This document shows, one piece after another, positions 35,643 to 41,200 of a stretch of 64,000 nt of DNA (the first letter of the stretch is position 1; every line of letters begins with the position of its first letter). This stretch comes from Pedobacter antarcticus. GTDB lineage: Bacteria; Bacteroidota; Bacteroidia; Sphingobacteriales; Sphingobacteriaceae. The notes under the pieces were generated by a model that was not told the DNA's origin, ran no database searches, and saw only the letters and a program-made list of their open reading frames with translations. Both the position numbers and the translations under genes were made by a program. The stretch is taken from positions 1-64,000 of the forward strand of contig NZ_FONS01000009.1 of assembly GCF_900112985.1 (NCBI RefSeq). Reading direction: 5' to 3'.

Positions 35643-37328
35643 ATGAGCAATAGTTTAGTGACTGCAGATTATGTGGTCTTCATTATCTACTTTCTGGTTG
35701 TATCAGGATACGGCTACTCGATATACCATAAAAGGAAAAAAGATGAACAGGATGCGAAAGCATTCTTCCTGGCTGAAGGCACATTAACGTGGTGGGCTAT
35801 CGGAGCTTCACTAATAGCATCCAATATATCGGCTGAGCAATTCATCGGTATGAGTGGCGAAGGATTTTTCCTTGGTATTGCTGTAGCTGCCTATGAGTGG
35901 ATTGCAGCCATTGCCCTAATTATTGTGGCTGTCTGGTTTATCCCGGTCTACCTCAAAAATAAGATTTATACCATGCCACAATTTCTCCAGACCCGGTATA
36001 ATGAATCCGTAGCCTTAATTATGGCTATTTTCTGGTTATTTTTGTATGTCTTTGTTAACCTGACGTCCATTCTTTATCTCGGTGCAGTCGCCATTAATGG
36101 CCTGACAGGAGGAGGTTATCTGCATATCATTATGATTGCACTGGCTGTCTTCGCACTGTTTATTTCATTAGGAGGAATGAAAGTAGTGGCGTACACAGAC
36201 GTAATCCAGGTGGGCGTTCTGATTCTGGGCGGATTAGTTACCACTTATATCGCATTAACAGTAGTTGGTGAGAAATTCGGCGTGGGCAGCAATGCAATTG
36301 CTGGTTTTAATGTGCTGATGGAACAAGCTCCGGAGCATTTTAAAATGATTATTCCAAAGCCTACTGCAGAATCGACACAAAACGAGATCAGCAAATACCT
36401 GACGTTCCCCGGACTGGCTTCTTATGTTGCAGGAATCTGGATCATCAATCTAAATTACTGGGGCTGCAATCAGTATATTACACAACGCGCGCTGGGTGCC
36501 GATCTGCATACTGCAAGAACGGGAATTCTGTTCGCAGGGTTACTTAAATTATTAATGCCCTTAATAGTGATGCTTCCAGGTATAGCTGCATATGTTCTTT
36601 ACAAAGGCGGCCATCTCCCGCAGCTGATAGGCGGCAAGGACGGTGCATATTCTGCAGTACTCACGTTCCTCCCTACCGGACTGAAAGGACTGTCTGTGGC
36701 AGCACTTACAGCTGCTATCGTAGCTTCTCTTGCCGGAAAGGTAAACAGTATCTCAACCATCTTCACATTAGACGTATATTCAAAGTATTTCAAAAAAGAT
36801 GCGAATGAAAAAGAACTTGTATTGGTGGGAAGGACTACCGTATTTGCGGGGCTGATTCTGGCAATACTTTTCACTTGGAATGACGTCCTGGGCATTGGCG
36901 GTGTGGGTGGATTCACCTATATACAGAAATATACAGGATTTATCAGCCCAGGTGTATTTGCTATGTTCTTTTTAGGAATGTTCTGGAAAAGAACTACTGG
37001 TTCTGCGGCTATTGCCGGCGTCCTTGCGGGTTTCATTTTCTCTGTGTTTTTCAACGAGTTTGCCCCTGCGGTGATGGGTAATGAAAATATACTCTACACT
37101 GCATATCCGAATGGAAACGGCGGTTATGAAATTCCTTTTCACATCTGTATGGGATTATCGTTCGGCTTCACAATGCTGATTATGATTGTGATGAGTTTTG
37201 CAGGACCTAAAATTAATCCGAAAGCATTTGAACTGGACAAATCCATGTTTAAAGTTAAACCTTCAACCATGGCATTGATTATCCTTACGCTTTTAATCAT
37301 CACTGCCCTTTACGTAAAATTCTGGTAA
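35643..37328 (+). CDS. Sodium:solute symporter (SSS family), probable arabinose transporter
   Basis: This 561-residue inner-membrane protein has about 14 helices. The N-terminal FLAEGTLTWWAIGASLIASN, then ISAEQFIGMSGEGF, and the later GGMKVVAYTDVIQVGVLILG are characteristic of SGLT-type transporters (vSGLT fold) that couple sugar uptake to Na+. It is the last gene of the araBDA run, 30 bases after araA, so L-arabinose is the likely cargo, but the sequence alone does not fix this. No signal peptide. Confidence 0.9.
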   Translation: MSNSLVTADYVVFIIYFLVVSGYGYSIYHKRKKDEQDAKAFFLAEGTLTWWAIGASLIASNISAEQFIGMSGEGFFLGIAVAAYEWIAAIALIIVAVWFIPVYLKNKIYTMPQFLQTRYNESVALIMAIFWLFLYVFVNLTSILYLGAVAINGLTGGGYLHIIMIALAVFALFISLGGMKVVAYTDVIQVGVLILGGLVTTYIALTVVGEKFGVGSNAIAGFNVLMEQAPEHFKMIIPKPTAESTQNEISKYLTFPGLASYVAGIWIINLNYWGCNQYITQRALGADLHTARTGILFAGLLKLLMPLIVMLPGIAAYVLYKGGHLPQLIGGKDGAYSAVLTFLPTGLKGLSVAALTAAIVASLAGKVNSISTIFTLDVYSKYFKKDANEKELVLVGRTTVFAGLILAILFTWNDVLGIGGVGGFTYIQKYTGFISPGVFAMFFLGMFWKRTTGSAAIAGVLAGFIFSVFFNEFAPAVMGNENILYTAYPNGNGGYEIPFHICMGLSFGFTMLIMIVMSFAGPKINPKAFELDKSMFKVKPSTMALIILTLLIITALYVKFW

Positions 37329-37377
37329 AGGCTCAAACTGTCAAAATTTCAACGAAATAAAAAAGAGCCTGTATCAT

Positions 37378-37468
37378 TGAAGTAAACCCCAAAAGTTGGA
37401 CAGATTAGAAAATTAAGTTTTTTGTGCAAGAGCTCGGTATTCCACCGGGCTCTTTTTTATTTCGTTGA
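37378..37468 (-). pseudogene. Relic of an IS3-family element (transposase C-terminus and end)
   Basis: On the minus strand the frame ends in FLNEIKKSPVEYRALAQKT followed by a stop at 37413-37415, like the SPVQYR-type tail of IS150-group OrfB. Beyond it is a terminal-repeat-like sequence whose plus-strand form begins TGAAGTAAACCCCAAAAGTT at 37378. Nothing else of the element remains nearby, so it is a decayed fragment. Confidence 0.6.
37428..37460 (+). terminator. Probable terminator of the arabinose operon
   Basis: AAGAGCTCGGT / ACCGGGCTCTT form an 11-position stem with one G-T pair and loop ATTCC, followed by a T run. It is about 100 bases after the transporter stop and lies within the IS3 relic. 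Confidence 0.65.
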
Positions 37469-37513
37469 GAAAGTATGGAATCTGCATTCACATTCGGATA
37501 TCGTTAAAGGTTA

Positions 37514-37611
37514 AAACGGTGTTGATAGGGTATTGATACGGTGTTGAGTCGGTGTTGATATACCCAATTACCGACTGAATACCCTGTCAATACCGGCTCA
37601 ATAGCCTTTTA
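37514..37611. repeat. 11-bp-periodic repeat array in inverted halves
   Basis: Four direct 11-base units at 37516-37559 (consensus ACGGTGTTGAT; AGGGTATTGAT is the most diverged) are followed, after an 8-base centre, by about four units of the reverse-complement form (37566 onward: AATTACCGACT, GAATACCCTGT, CAATACCGGCT, CAATAGCC). Each half keeps exact 11-base phase. The halves can pair imperfectly into a long hairpin. It is not coding and is not a CRISPR array, because no spacers separate the units. The function is unknown. Confidence 0.7.
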
Positions 37612-37719
37612 GCGTAAAGCAAGCTAACCGGTATACTTATTTCAGGAATGAACAACATGGTTAAGGTTAGGCAGATCTTAAGTTCAAACATTGCTATGGC
37701 CTAAAGAACTAATTGTGAA

Positions 37720-37768
37720 AATTAAAAATAAAGGCTCCGGATTTATTCCGGAGCCTTTATTTTTAATT
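37720..37768. terminator. 22-bp-stem bidirectional terminator
   Basis: The arms 37720-37741 and 37747-37768 pair perfectly with a 5-base loop. The core is GGCTCCGGA / TCCGGAGCC, with AAATAAA / TTTATTT flanks giving U runs in both directions. It ends the small membrane protein transcript on the minus strand and any read-through on the plus strand. Confidence 0.9.
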
Positions 37769-37799
37769 GAAATTCTATATATTTTAGAACAGGTTTACA

Positions 37800-38057
37800 T
37801 TATTCTTGTAAATTCTGTTTTTCTTCAGCCTGTACCGGAACTTCAGGGTCAAGTTCCACACAGCCTTCTTTATCCTTACGTGAAAACAAGATTGGATAAA
37901 GAAAGAGGAACCCTCCTAGCATGAACAAAAAACCTGAAAGTTCAAGCAGGTATTTACTCCAGCTACTATCCTCATCGCTCATTAAATATGTCACAAGAGC
38001 CACAACAGCCAATAAAATAGCAATTAAAGCTTTTTGAAGTTTCATTGTTTTGATCAT
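37800..38057 (-). CDS. Small two-helix membrane protein, unknown function
   Basis: This protein of about 85 residues has two membrane helices (about 9-27 and 37-57) and an acidic cytoplasmic tail (ELDPEVPVQAEEKQN). I do not recognise a family. Two in-frame ATGs are possible, four codons apart (MIKTMKLQKAL); I list the longer, but the shorter (start 38045) is equally plausible. It is divergent from ileS, and a very strong terminator 32 bases downstream supports expression. Confidence 0.7.
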   Translation of the reverse strand: MIKTMKLQKALIAILLAVVALVTYLMSDEDSSWSKYLLELSGFLFMLGGFLFLYPILFSRKDKEGCVELDPEVPVQAEEKQNLQE

Positions 38058-38176
38058 GATGCAGGTGTTGAGGTTAATTTCTGGCAGTAAATATATATAT
38101 CAAAAATCAAACTAGCTGAAGAATCTGAGTTCCAATGTAATTCTTGACACTTCTACTATTTTTCATTCTTAATACG

Positions 38177-38184
38177 TAACTTTG
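38177..38184 (+). promoter_or_regulatory. -7 promoter element of ileS
   Basis: TAACTTTG matches TAnnTTTG, 30 bases before the ileS start. There is no good -33 TTTG at the ideal distance, but TTGACA occurs at 38144-38149. Confidence 0.5.
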
Positions 38185-38213
38185 CATCCTTATTTTTTTA
38201 AGATACTGGATTG

Positions 38214-41200
38214 ATGTATAGGGAATTTAAACAATTAGAACTGCCTAAAATAGGTAAAGAGATACTGGAATTTTGGAAAGCGGAAAATATCTTTGAGAAG
38301 AGTATTTCTACCCGCTCTAAAGCTAACCCATTTACTTTTTATGAAGGTCCGCCTTCCGCAAACGGCATGCCTGGTATCCACCACGTTATGGCCCGTGCTA
38401 TTAAAGATATCTTTTGCCGTTACAAGACCCTGAAAGGTTTCCAGGTGAAACGTAAAGGCGGATGGGATACGCATGGTTTACCAATCGAACTTGCTGTTGA
38501 AAAGAAACTAGGTATTACAAAGGTAGACATCGGTACTAAAATCACTGTGGAAGCTTATAACGCTGCCTGCCGTGAAGAAGTTATGCGTTATACAGATATC
38601 TGGAATGACCTGACTGAAAAGATGGGTTACTGGGTAGACCTGGAAAAACCATATATCACTTATGAAAATGAGTATATCGAATCACTGTGGTGGATCTTAA
38701 AGACATTTTACAATAAAGGACTGCTTTATAAAGGATATACCGTACAGCCTTATTCCCCGGCTGCAGGTACTGGCCTGAGCTCTCATGAGCTTAATCAGCC
38801 AGGAACCTACAAAATGTTGAAAGACACTTCGATCACGGCACAGTTCTTTATTAAAAAAGATCAGGAACATCCACTGATGTCAGTTCTGTTCAGTAATGAG
38901 CAGGAAGAAACAGCGATTATCGCCTGGACAACTACACCATGGACTTTACCATCCAACGGTGCACTGGCAGTAGGTGAGAAAATTGCTTATATTAAAGTGG
39001 CAACTTTCAACCCTTATACCTTCAAACCCGTTAGCCTGGTGCTCGCAAAAGATCTACTTGCCAAACATTTCAAAGCTGATGCGAAAGACCTTGATTTTAC
39101 GGCCTATAAAGGAGGCGATAAACTGATCCCCTGGACAGTTACAGCTGAATTTACGGGTAAAGATCTTTGTGGCCTGAAATATCATCAGTTACTGGATTAT
39201 GTAACTAATCCGGAACTGGAAGAAAAAGCATTCCGTGTAATTCCCGCAGATTATGTAACCACAGAAGACGGTACAGGTATCGTACACATTGCCTCTGTTT
39301 TCGGAGCAGACGATTTCCGGGTTGCCAAAGAGAATGGCGTACCGGCAGTTATGGTGAAAGACGAGCAAGGCAATGAACTTCCGTTAGTGAATAAACTAGG
39401 TAAATTCGTAGACGAAGTAACAGATTTCGCTGGGAAATATGTCAAGGAGGAATATTATACAGACGAAGAGCGTCAGGCATCCGATTTCAAACCGACCGAT
39501 GTATTAATCGCGATTAAGCTGAAAGAAGATAATAAAGCCTTCGACGTTAAAAAATACGAACACAGTTATCCACATTGCTGGAGAACTGATAAACCGATCC
39601 TCTATTATCCACTGGACAGCTGGTTTATTAAAACGACTGCGGTAAAGGAGAAAATGGTGGCATTGAATAAAACCATCAATTGGAAACCTGAAGCTACCGG
39701 TACAGGCCGTTTTGGGAACTGGCTGGAAAATTTGGTAGACTGGAACCTTTCCCGTTCACGCTACTGGGGTACACCGCTTCCAATATGGAGAACTCAGGAT
39801 GGAACGGAAGAGAAATGTATCGGTTCAATTGCAGAGCTGAATGCTGAAATTAAAATGGCTGTTGAGGCTGGGTTTATGGATGCCGCTTTTGAATTGAAAG
39901 ATATGCACCGTCCTTTTGTAGATGATGTGATCCTGAAATCAGAAAAAGGTGAACGTATGTTCCGTGAGGCAGACCTGATTGACGTTTGGTTTGACAGTGG
40001 AGCTATGCCTTATGCACAGTGGCATTATCCGTTTGAAAATGCAGAAGAGTTTGAAAATTCATATCCTGCAGATTTCATTGCAGAAGGTGTAGATCAAACG
40101 CGTGGTTGGTTCTTCACCTTACATGCTATAGCAGTGATGTTGAGCGAAACCAGTGAAGAAATTAAAGCCGTGAATGCTCGTGTGGGTAACGGTGGAATCG
40201 CGTATAAAAATGTTGTTTCTAACGGTCTCGTACTGGATAAAAACGGCAATAAAATGTCTAAACGTCTCGGCAATGGTGTAGATCCATTCCATACGATTGA
40301 CACTTACAGTGCAGATGCCACACGCTGGTATATGATCAGTAATGCTTCTCCCTGGGACAACCTGAAGTTTAACACAGAAGGCCTGGACGAAGTAAGAAGA
40401 AAATTCTTCGGTACTTTATATAACACCTATGCCTTCTTTGCACTGTATGCAAATATCGACAAATTCGAAATCGATCCGGAAAATGAGACACCTGTTCAAG
40501 ACCGTAGTGAATTAGATCGATGGATTCTTTCTCTACTGCAAAAGCTGATCAATGAAGTTGACGAGAGCTACGCAACATATGAACCAACAAGAGCAGCCAG
40601 AGCAATCCAGACTTTTGTAGATGAGCATTTGAGTAACTGGTATATCCGTTTATCACGCCGTCGTTTCTGGAAAGGTGAAATGACAGACGATAAGAAAGCA
40701 GCTTATGAAACGCTGTATACTTGTTTGGTACGCATTTCTCAGCTAATGTCTCCCGTAGCACCATTCTTTGCAGACTGGTTATACCAGAACCTATCAGTAG
40801 GTAAGGCTGTTACTGCAGAACAATCTGTTCATTTGAGCCTATGGGAATCTGGCAACACCACACTGATCGACCAGGACCTGAACGAAAGAATGGAACTTGC
40901 ACAACAGATCTCTTCAATGGTACTTTCATTGAGAAAGAAGATGAGTATTAACGTACGTCAACCATTAGCCAAGATCCTGATTCCTGTATTGGATAAAGGT
41001 TTTGAGCAAAAAGTTGAAAAGGTGAAAGATATCATTCTCTCCGAGACAAATATCAAAGACATTGAATTCATTACCGACACTGCCGGATTTATTAAAAAGA
41101 AGTTAAAACCAAATTTCAAGGCTTTAGGCCCGAAAGTTGGTAAGGATATGAAAACTGTAGCGGCTCTGCTAACTGCTTTGAGCCCGGAAGAACTGGCTGT

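Follow-up and report, generated by a model that had tools for sequence, protein, structure and literature searches.

Helix-phased repeat arrays in Pedobacter genomes and their pairing with genes of the DUF6266 family

Is a run of near-identical 11-base units in an intergenic region of a bacterial chromosome a local accident, or does it belong to a family of repeats with a partner in the cell? This question is raised by a 98-base array in a stretch of 64,000 nucleotides from Pedobacter antarcticus, which is referred to below as the window. In this work, we first examine the array itself and its relatives in Pedobacter, and then describe its association with genes for an uncharacterised protein family, DUF6266 (PF19781). 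The array belongs to a large family of such arrays scattered through Pedobacter genomes, and similar arrays sit just upstream of many DUF6266 genes, which suggests a new partnership between a protein and a DNA repeat. Genomes are denoted by G numbers (G000 is the host genome, 4.57 Mb in 25 contigs, and G044 is its sister genome), contigs of the host genome by C numbers, and individual loci carrying arrays or DUF6266 genes by L numbers.

The array and its dispersed family

A preliminary description, made from the sequence alone, reported four 11-base units in phase, followed by about four reverse-complement-type units in the same phase around an 8-base centre, in an intergenic region next to an IS relic. 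We confirm this observation, with the amendment that the centre is one 11-base period rather than 8 bases, so that the phase runs unbroken through it. The coordinates are collected in Table 1; a fourth unit of the right half is recognised only by eye, in decayed form. Tandem Repeats Finder reports both halves with period 11. When the window was scanned at different lags, the best 44-base stretch at lag 11 had 30/44 matches and was this array, whereas the maxima at the other lags from 5 to 24 were 23-27, the 27s being lag 9 elsewhere and lag 22 at this same array. The array lies between the end of a sodium-solute symporter-like gene and a small convergent gene next to ileS. As the preliminary description stated, it is not a CRISPR, since the gaps between the conserved cores are 3 bases and there are no unique spacers of similar length to the repeats. 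No Rfam family exceeded its gathering score in window positions 37000-38300.

Table 1. Features of the array and its surroundings (positions in the window unless a contig is named)
Position	Strand	Feature	Remarks
37514-37611		whole array	98 bases
37518-37561	+	left half	four 11-bp units of the GGTRTTGANNN type
37518-37528		unit of left half	GGTGTTGATAG
37529-37539		unit of left half	GGTATTGATAC
37540-37550		unit of left half	GGTGTTGAGTC
37551-37561		unit of left half	GGTGTTGATAT
37562-37572		centre	ACCCAATTACC; one 11-bp period long, in phase; best dyad at 37561.5
37573-37605	-	right half	three clear reverse-complement units, in the same phase
37573-37583		unit of right half	GACTGAATACC
37584-37594		unit of right half	CTGTCAATACC
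37595-37605		unit of right half	GGCTCAATAGC
37452-37671	+	body of the dispersed element (subfamily A)	shared in whole or part, at 75-91% identity, with seven other G000 copies; G000:C3 matches it end to end; three G000 copies and one G044 copy end at the same right point
37353-37719		stretch absent from the orthologous site of G044
37382-37455		IS end relic beside the element	not counted as part of it; matches G000:C12:148449-148519
37349-37369 and 37448-37468		perfect 21-nt inverted repeat around an IS end relic	perhaps a terminator; part of it recurs at the L006 copy
37720-37768		perfect 22-bp hairpin with A and T runs	likely bidirectional terminator; a similar hairpin stands at the G044 site
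C17:99849-99954		array upstream of the DUF6266 gene of contig C17	same unit as the window's array
C17: about 100078-100725		DUF6266 gene

The host genome contains 13 arrays of this unit. Eight of them, the window's array included, share more than the array, over up to about 220 bp, at unrelated places, while the other five share only the array. The IS relic seems incidental, because no other copy of the element matched across it. In the sister genome, four other copies look orthologous and filled, judged by neighbours or flanks (L018/L063, L011/L060, L010/L053 and L008/L161). By contrast, at the site of L002, G044 keeps the left flank without the array, so that absence may be due to deletion there, and at the site of L003 it has other DNA and no array. 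The lack of a second copy in the genome or its relatives and of a conserved phase, which had been set beforehand as the outcome that would speak against the array, was checked for and did not materialise.

Arrays with species-specific units but the same grammar (GG--TTG every 11 bases, often in two inverted halves) occur elsewhere in the genus. When the unit was loosened to SGGNNTTGNNN, three in a row, 18 of 145 Pedobacter genomes matched exactly, whereas the reversed control gave one hit, in G051. Together with G044 and G130, which were found in a separate search, 20 genomes thus carry this unit type. Examples of the units are CGGGTTTGAWR in G041, CGGGGTTGAWR in G068, GGGTGTTGGTA in G111 and GGGCCTTGCTG in G039. 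The phase continues outside the clear units: information per unit is 4.49 bits in units 0-4 from the dyad, 0.52 in units 5-7, 0.11 in units 8-11 and about 0.03 beyond, although the inner units were selected by pattern and arrays differ in unit number. In 121 non-redundant halves (of 145, from 73 arrays), the phase-locked alternation of A/T and G/C at 55-88 bp from the dyad exceeds all of 2000 phase shuffles, while at 88-132 bp p = 0.06.

Outside this set, the search yielded little. A scan of named genomes with the exact three-unit pattern gave 24 stretches, one of them in Pedobacter, and a scan of viral sequences gave 6; a check of the rest for DUF6266 found none, and we take them as chance. 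In a sample of the family, 8 of 301 genomes match, and the five hits in other genera (G205, G314, G349, G352 and G354) look unrelated, three of them seen in context and two only as the matched letters. In G314, locus L110 is a long array of short ACAACGCCCT-like repeats of uneven length, possibly unrelated. A sequence-agnostic scan of 400 kb in G068 and G055, requiring 25/44 matches and an inverted partner of 23/33, found lag 11 no commoner than other lags; it flagged one known array (L147), while two others known there (L143 and L155) fell short of the partner threshold.

Association with DUF6266 genes

To ask whether the arrays have a partner gene, we clustered 622 open frames near 73 arrays. 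One family recurs right beside arrays: DUF6266, at 10 loci in 10 species, with 14 members within 1.5 kb, against at most five for any other among the 22 clusters shown. In every case the array is upstream of the first gene, which is transcribed away from it, and the dyad is 104-249 nt from the start of the gene apart from one over-extended frame; the Pfam assignment was made for three of them. Three further genomes were added, namely G068, and G016 and G135 from coordinates and a scan of upstream regions, which makes 13 of the 20 genomes with this unit type. In the other seven no adjacent DUF6266 gene was seen in a partial coverage of arrays and DUF6266 matches, with arrays examined from six of them and none from G140. 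Note that genes were defined here as longest open frames rather than by a gene finder. Of the 73 arrays, two fell inside such frames (L253, apparently an over-extended start, and L276, a 113-aa frame) and two had no frame on one side; these four are left out of the count of gene contexts. Among the remaining 69, 33 lie in tandem, 21 in divergent and 15 in convergent gaps, against 109, 82 and 32 background gaps, so the dispersed arrays show no clear preference for promoters.

The association is broader than the unit. Many DUF6266 genes collected by family alone have strong arrays upstream with other sequences, such as AACAGGGNNNN, CTAACTATATG, TACCCTTGCNA and GGWCAATNNC (10 bp). Of 47 such genes (loci L280-L305 and L330-L353; L306-L309 were inadvertently left out), 29 have a strong array within 330 nt upstream, 20 at lag 11 and 9 at lag 10, none being best at 9 or 12, whereas 18 do not reach the threshold. 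Among 74 neighbouring genes, there is 1 at lag 11, 5 at lag 10, and one each at lags 8, 9, 13, 14 and 16; the 10-base class is therefore only modestly above the control and is weaker evidence. The array ends a median 124 nt before the start codon, and the Bacteroidota -7 motif between array and start codon is only mildly enriched (18 of 58, 9.8 expected). Arrays of 10-bp units precede a subgroup of DUF6266 genes (L304, L303, L306, L292 and L324), and in L292, L303, L304 and L306 a promoter-like TATACTTTYG motif follows the array. DUF6266 genes often come in pairs, and the second genes of close pairs lack arrays (L056, L229, L235, L265, L271, L318-L320 and L322). Arrays also precede DUF6266 genes outside the genus, for example L337 in the same family, and L345 and L346 in other families.

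If the units beside genes are addresses, they should also occur as dispersed arrays. This prediction held for one unit, AACAGGGNNNN: AACAGGG units, taken from L284, L289 and L290, form arrays in 30 of 145 genomes with one mismatch allowed, often at several places per genome, whereas the reversed control gave 0. In addition, when a threshold of 28/44 was used and no inverted partner was required, positions 1-400000 of contig C17 of the host genome held 6 places at lag 11, against 0-2 for each other lag from 5 to 25, the two at lag 22 lying on lag-11 arrays. By eye, five of the six carry units of DUF6266 genes of this genome: 99842 and 370385 have the window's unit, the former beside the only DUF6266 gene of that stretch, 52459 and 196315 have that of the gene at C24:439225, and 255823 has that of C6:239743. 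The sixth, at 349322 (TTTAAT type, score 28), was not assigned to a DUF6266 gene, nor was a weaker array at 116934 (TTAGAA type, score 27), while 310785 (score 26, not among the six) resembles the unit of C13:153197. Three Pedobacter genomes without a DUF6266 match (G045, G099 and G145) have no array of either pattern. However, DUF6266 alone does not predict the window's unit type: 9 of 10 genomes picked without it also have DUF6266 genes, and many genomes with DUF6266 lack both patterns, as expected if units vary.

Protein identity and unit similarity are correlated over 39 proteins below 60% identity (Mantel r = 0.375, p = 0.0002), but this set includes loci chosen by unit pattern. Without them, 32 proteins give r = 0.164 and p = 0.016, and this correlation rests on six pairs at 40-60% identity. 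If the link is real, specificity turns over fast. The proteins themselves, of about 210 aa, show no recognised DNA-binding domain, no PDB relative and no other clear Pfam match. Among 21 members, only ten families were hit up to E = 1; a single weak hit in one member (fn3, E = 0.043) and the look of the sequence hint at a fibronectin-III-like sandwich in the C-terminal half. Searches of plasmid and phage collections with one query protein, of viral contigs with another, and of NCBIfam and PHROGs with four proteins returned nothing.

Interpretation of the arrays

The interpretation offered in the preliminary description, which proposed a cooperative protein-binding site on one face of the helix, a structured RNA or cruciform, or a small dispersed repeat family, is partly supported: the dispersed family and the phased protein-binding array hold together, although binding is inferred, while structured RNA or cruciform is not supported. 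We favour, with moderate confidence, the view that the array is a multi-site recognition sequence for a DUF6266 protein, with one site of about 8 bases per turn of B-DNA, so that protomers would line up on one face of the helix from a central dyad. In the host genome the cognate protein would be that of the C17 gene (Table 1). Its upstream array would be an operator or nucleation site for that gene, and the dispersed arrays would be further sites for the same protein, spread by copying of a short element (about 220 bp in subfamily A) into intergenic DNA. DUF6266 paralogues with different units coexist, so that several independent protein-array pairs can share one genome. Unit lengths of 10 and 11 bracket the 10.5-bp turn of B-DNA and argue, by inference, for a DNA rather than an A-form RNA readout. 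The array family, its phase, its dispersal, its linkage to the upstream side of DUF6266 genes and the presence of several unit types in one genome were shown by computation, whereas physical binding, autoregulation, the way in which copies spread and any benefit to the cell are inferred. The lack of a clear promoter preference speaks against a plain regulator, and the dispersed arrays do not look like ordinary operators.

Other explanations seem unlikely to us. The inverted halves might be selected to pair as a long hairpin in RNA or single-stranded DNA, and the predicted fold is indeed strong (-52.3 kcal/mol, z -7.0 on the + strand; -36.0, z -3.65 on the other), but this follows from both arms being built of one unit. 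When a copy's own arms were compared with arms of other copies in the same genome, leaving out homologous arm pairs, they matched no better (mean difference -0.11 matches, n = 59, Wilcoxon p = 0.50); an earlier permutation test with uncorrected orientations gave p = 0.75. By genome, the difference is negative in G000, G041, G046 and G068, near zero or slightly positive in G039, G044 and G111, and clearly positive (+5.1) only in G055, which holds several unit types. Moreover, the outer arms lose complementarity but keep phase out to about 88 bp, an inverted half was detected in only 29 of 58 gene-side arrays, and, by eye, an 11-nt unit is missing from one arm only in an ortholog (L063 against L018). 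A result in favour of pairing, an excess of G-U over A-C mismatches by 19 to 6 in the eight oriented subfamily A copies, comes from related copies. A type III toxin-antitoxin-like pair, in which the array is transcribed as a repeat RNA that neutralises the protein and gene-less arrays are orphan antitoxins, would fit tandem repeats upstream of a protein of this size with the unit following the protein clade. However, the repeats are of 10-11 bases only, the array ends well before the start codon, and no ToxN-type match was found by sequence alone, among the ten Pfam families that were hit.

A DNA-wrapping or bending site for a general factor such as gyrase, with the link to DUF6266 being secondary, is suggested by the dyad symmetry and the phase-locked base alternation. 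It is doubtful because the inner units are strand-specific in sequence (CAA and CC in one direction) and differ between coexisting types, and because a general factor does not explain the place upstream of DUF6266 genes. A plain MITE, whose internal repeats bind an unidentified transposase, would account for the roughly 220 bp shared at unrelated sites and for the absence of the window's copy in G044. However, no terminal inverted repeat or target duplication was evident by eye at ends that are not sharply defined, five G000 copies share only the array and not the body, some absences may be deletions, and the DUF6266 link is left unexplained.

A further reading, which we regard as possible but tentative, is that DUF6266 is a family of array-reading proteins in which each paralogue polymerises along its own helix-phased DNA address, and that the gene, its operator array and its dispersed arrays form independent, coexisting repeat-protein populations in one chromosome. 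This would be an independent counterpart of RAYT-REPIN with a new protein family and a new, helically coded repeat. No paper mentioning DUF6266 or listing such a repeat family was found in a literature search, which covered open-access papers only and does not prove that nothing is in print. The pairing would give a first functional lead for DUF6266 and a new class of dispersed bacterial repeat with a named partner gene. Because paralogues with different units coexist (1 to 23 DUF6266 genes in the 20 genomes with this unit type, and 35 in G141), it offers a natural set of protein-DNA specificities to decode, and a second case besides REPINs in which to ask how repeat populations persist in compact genomes.

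Comparison with known systems

In its genomic organisation, the family resembles REPIN and RAYT, the REP sequences with their REP-associated tyrosine transposase: the repeats are dispersed, intergenic and in inverted pairs, a cluster lies beside a single-copy gene of matching type, there are several types per genome, and the repeat differs by lineage (PMC3116915). However, the protein is DUF6266, none of 21 members of which matches a Y1 transposase model, and the repeat is a run of 10-11 bp units in helical phase rather than a pair of short palindromes. In the proposed mode of binding, the parallel is ParR on the parC centromeres of plasmids, where direct repeats of 10 or 11 bp upstream of the operon (11 bp in R1, 10 bp in pB171) are bound only by the cognate protein (PMC9426499). 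The DUF6266 arrays likewise are 10-11 bp repeats upstream of the gene of an inferred binder, but they are chromosomal, in many copies and often with inverted halves, and no ribbon-helix-helix match was found in the 21 members. By these sequence tests, the family belongs to neither system.

Type III toxin-antitoxin systems (ToxIN) also pair repeats with a small protein gene (PMC8860590), and the repeats lie upstream of it. Here, the units are much shorter than ToxI repeats, gene-less arrays are dispersed, and there is no ToxN match by sequence. The closest physical parallel for long symmetric phasing is the gyrase motif (PMC6379681; PMC12393610). In E. coli this motif is 130 bp long and symmetric, with 10.75-bp GC periodicity, and BIME-2 repeats hold gyrase sites (PMC6379681). 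Strong gyrase sites and the arrays thus share a symmetric base composition with a period of about 11 bp over more than 100 bp, but the gyrase motif has a 36-bp central part between its periodic regions, whereas the arrays have sequence-specific units, a phase that runs through the centre, and a linked gene family.
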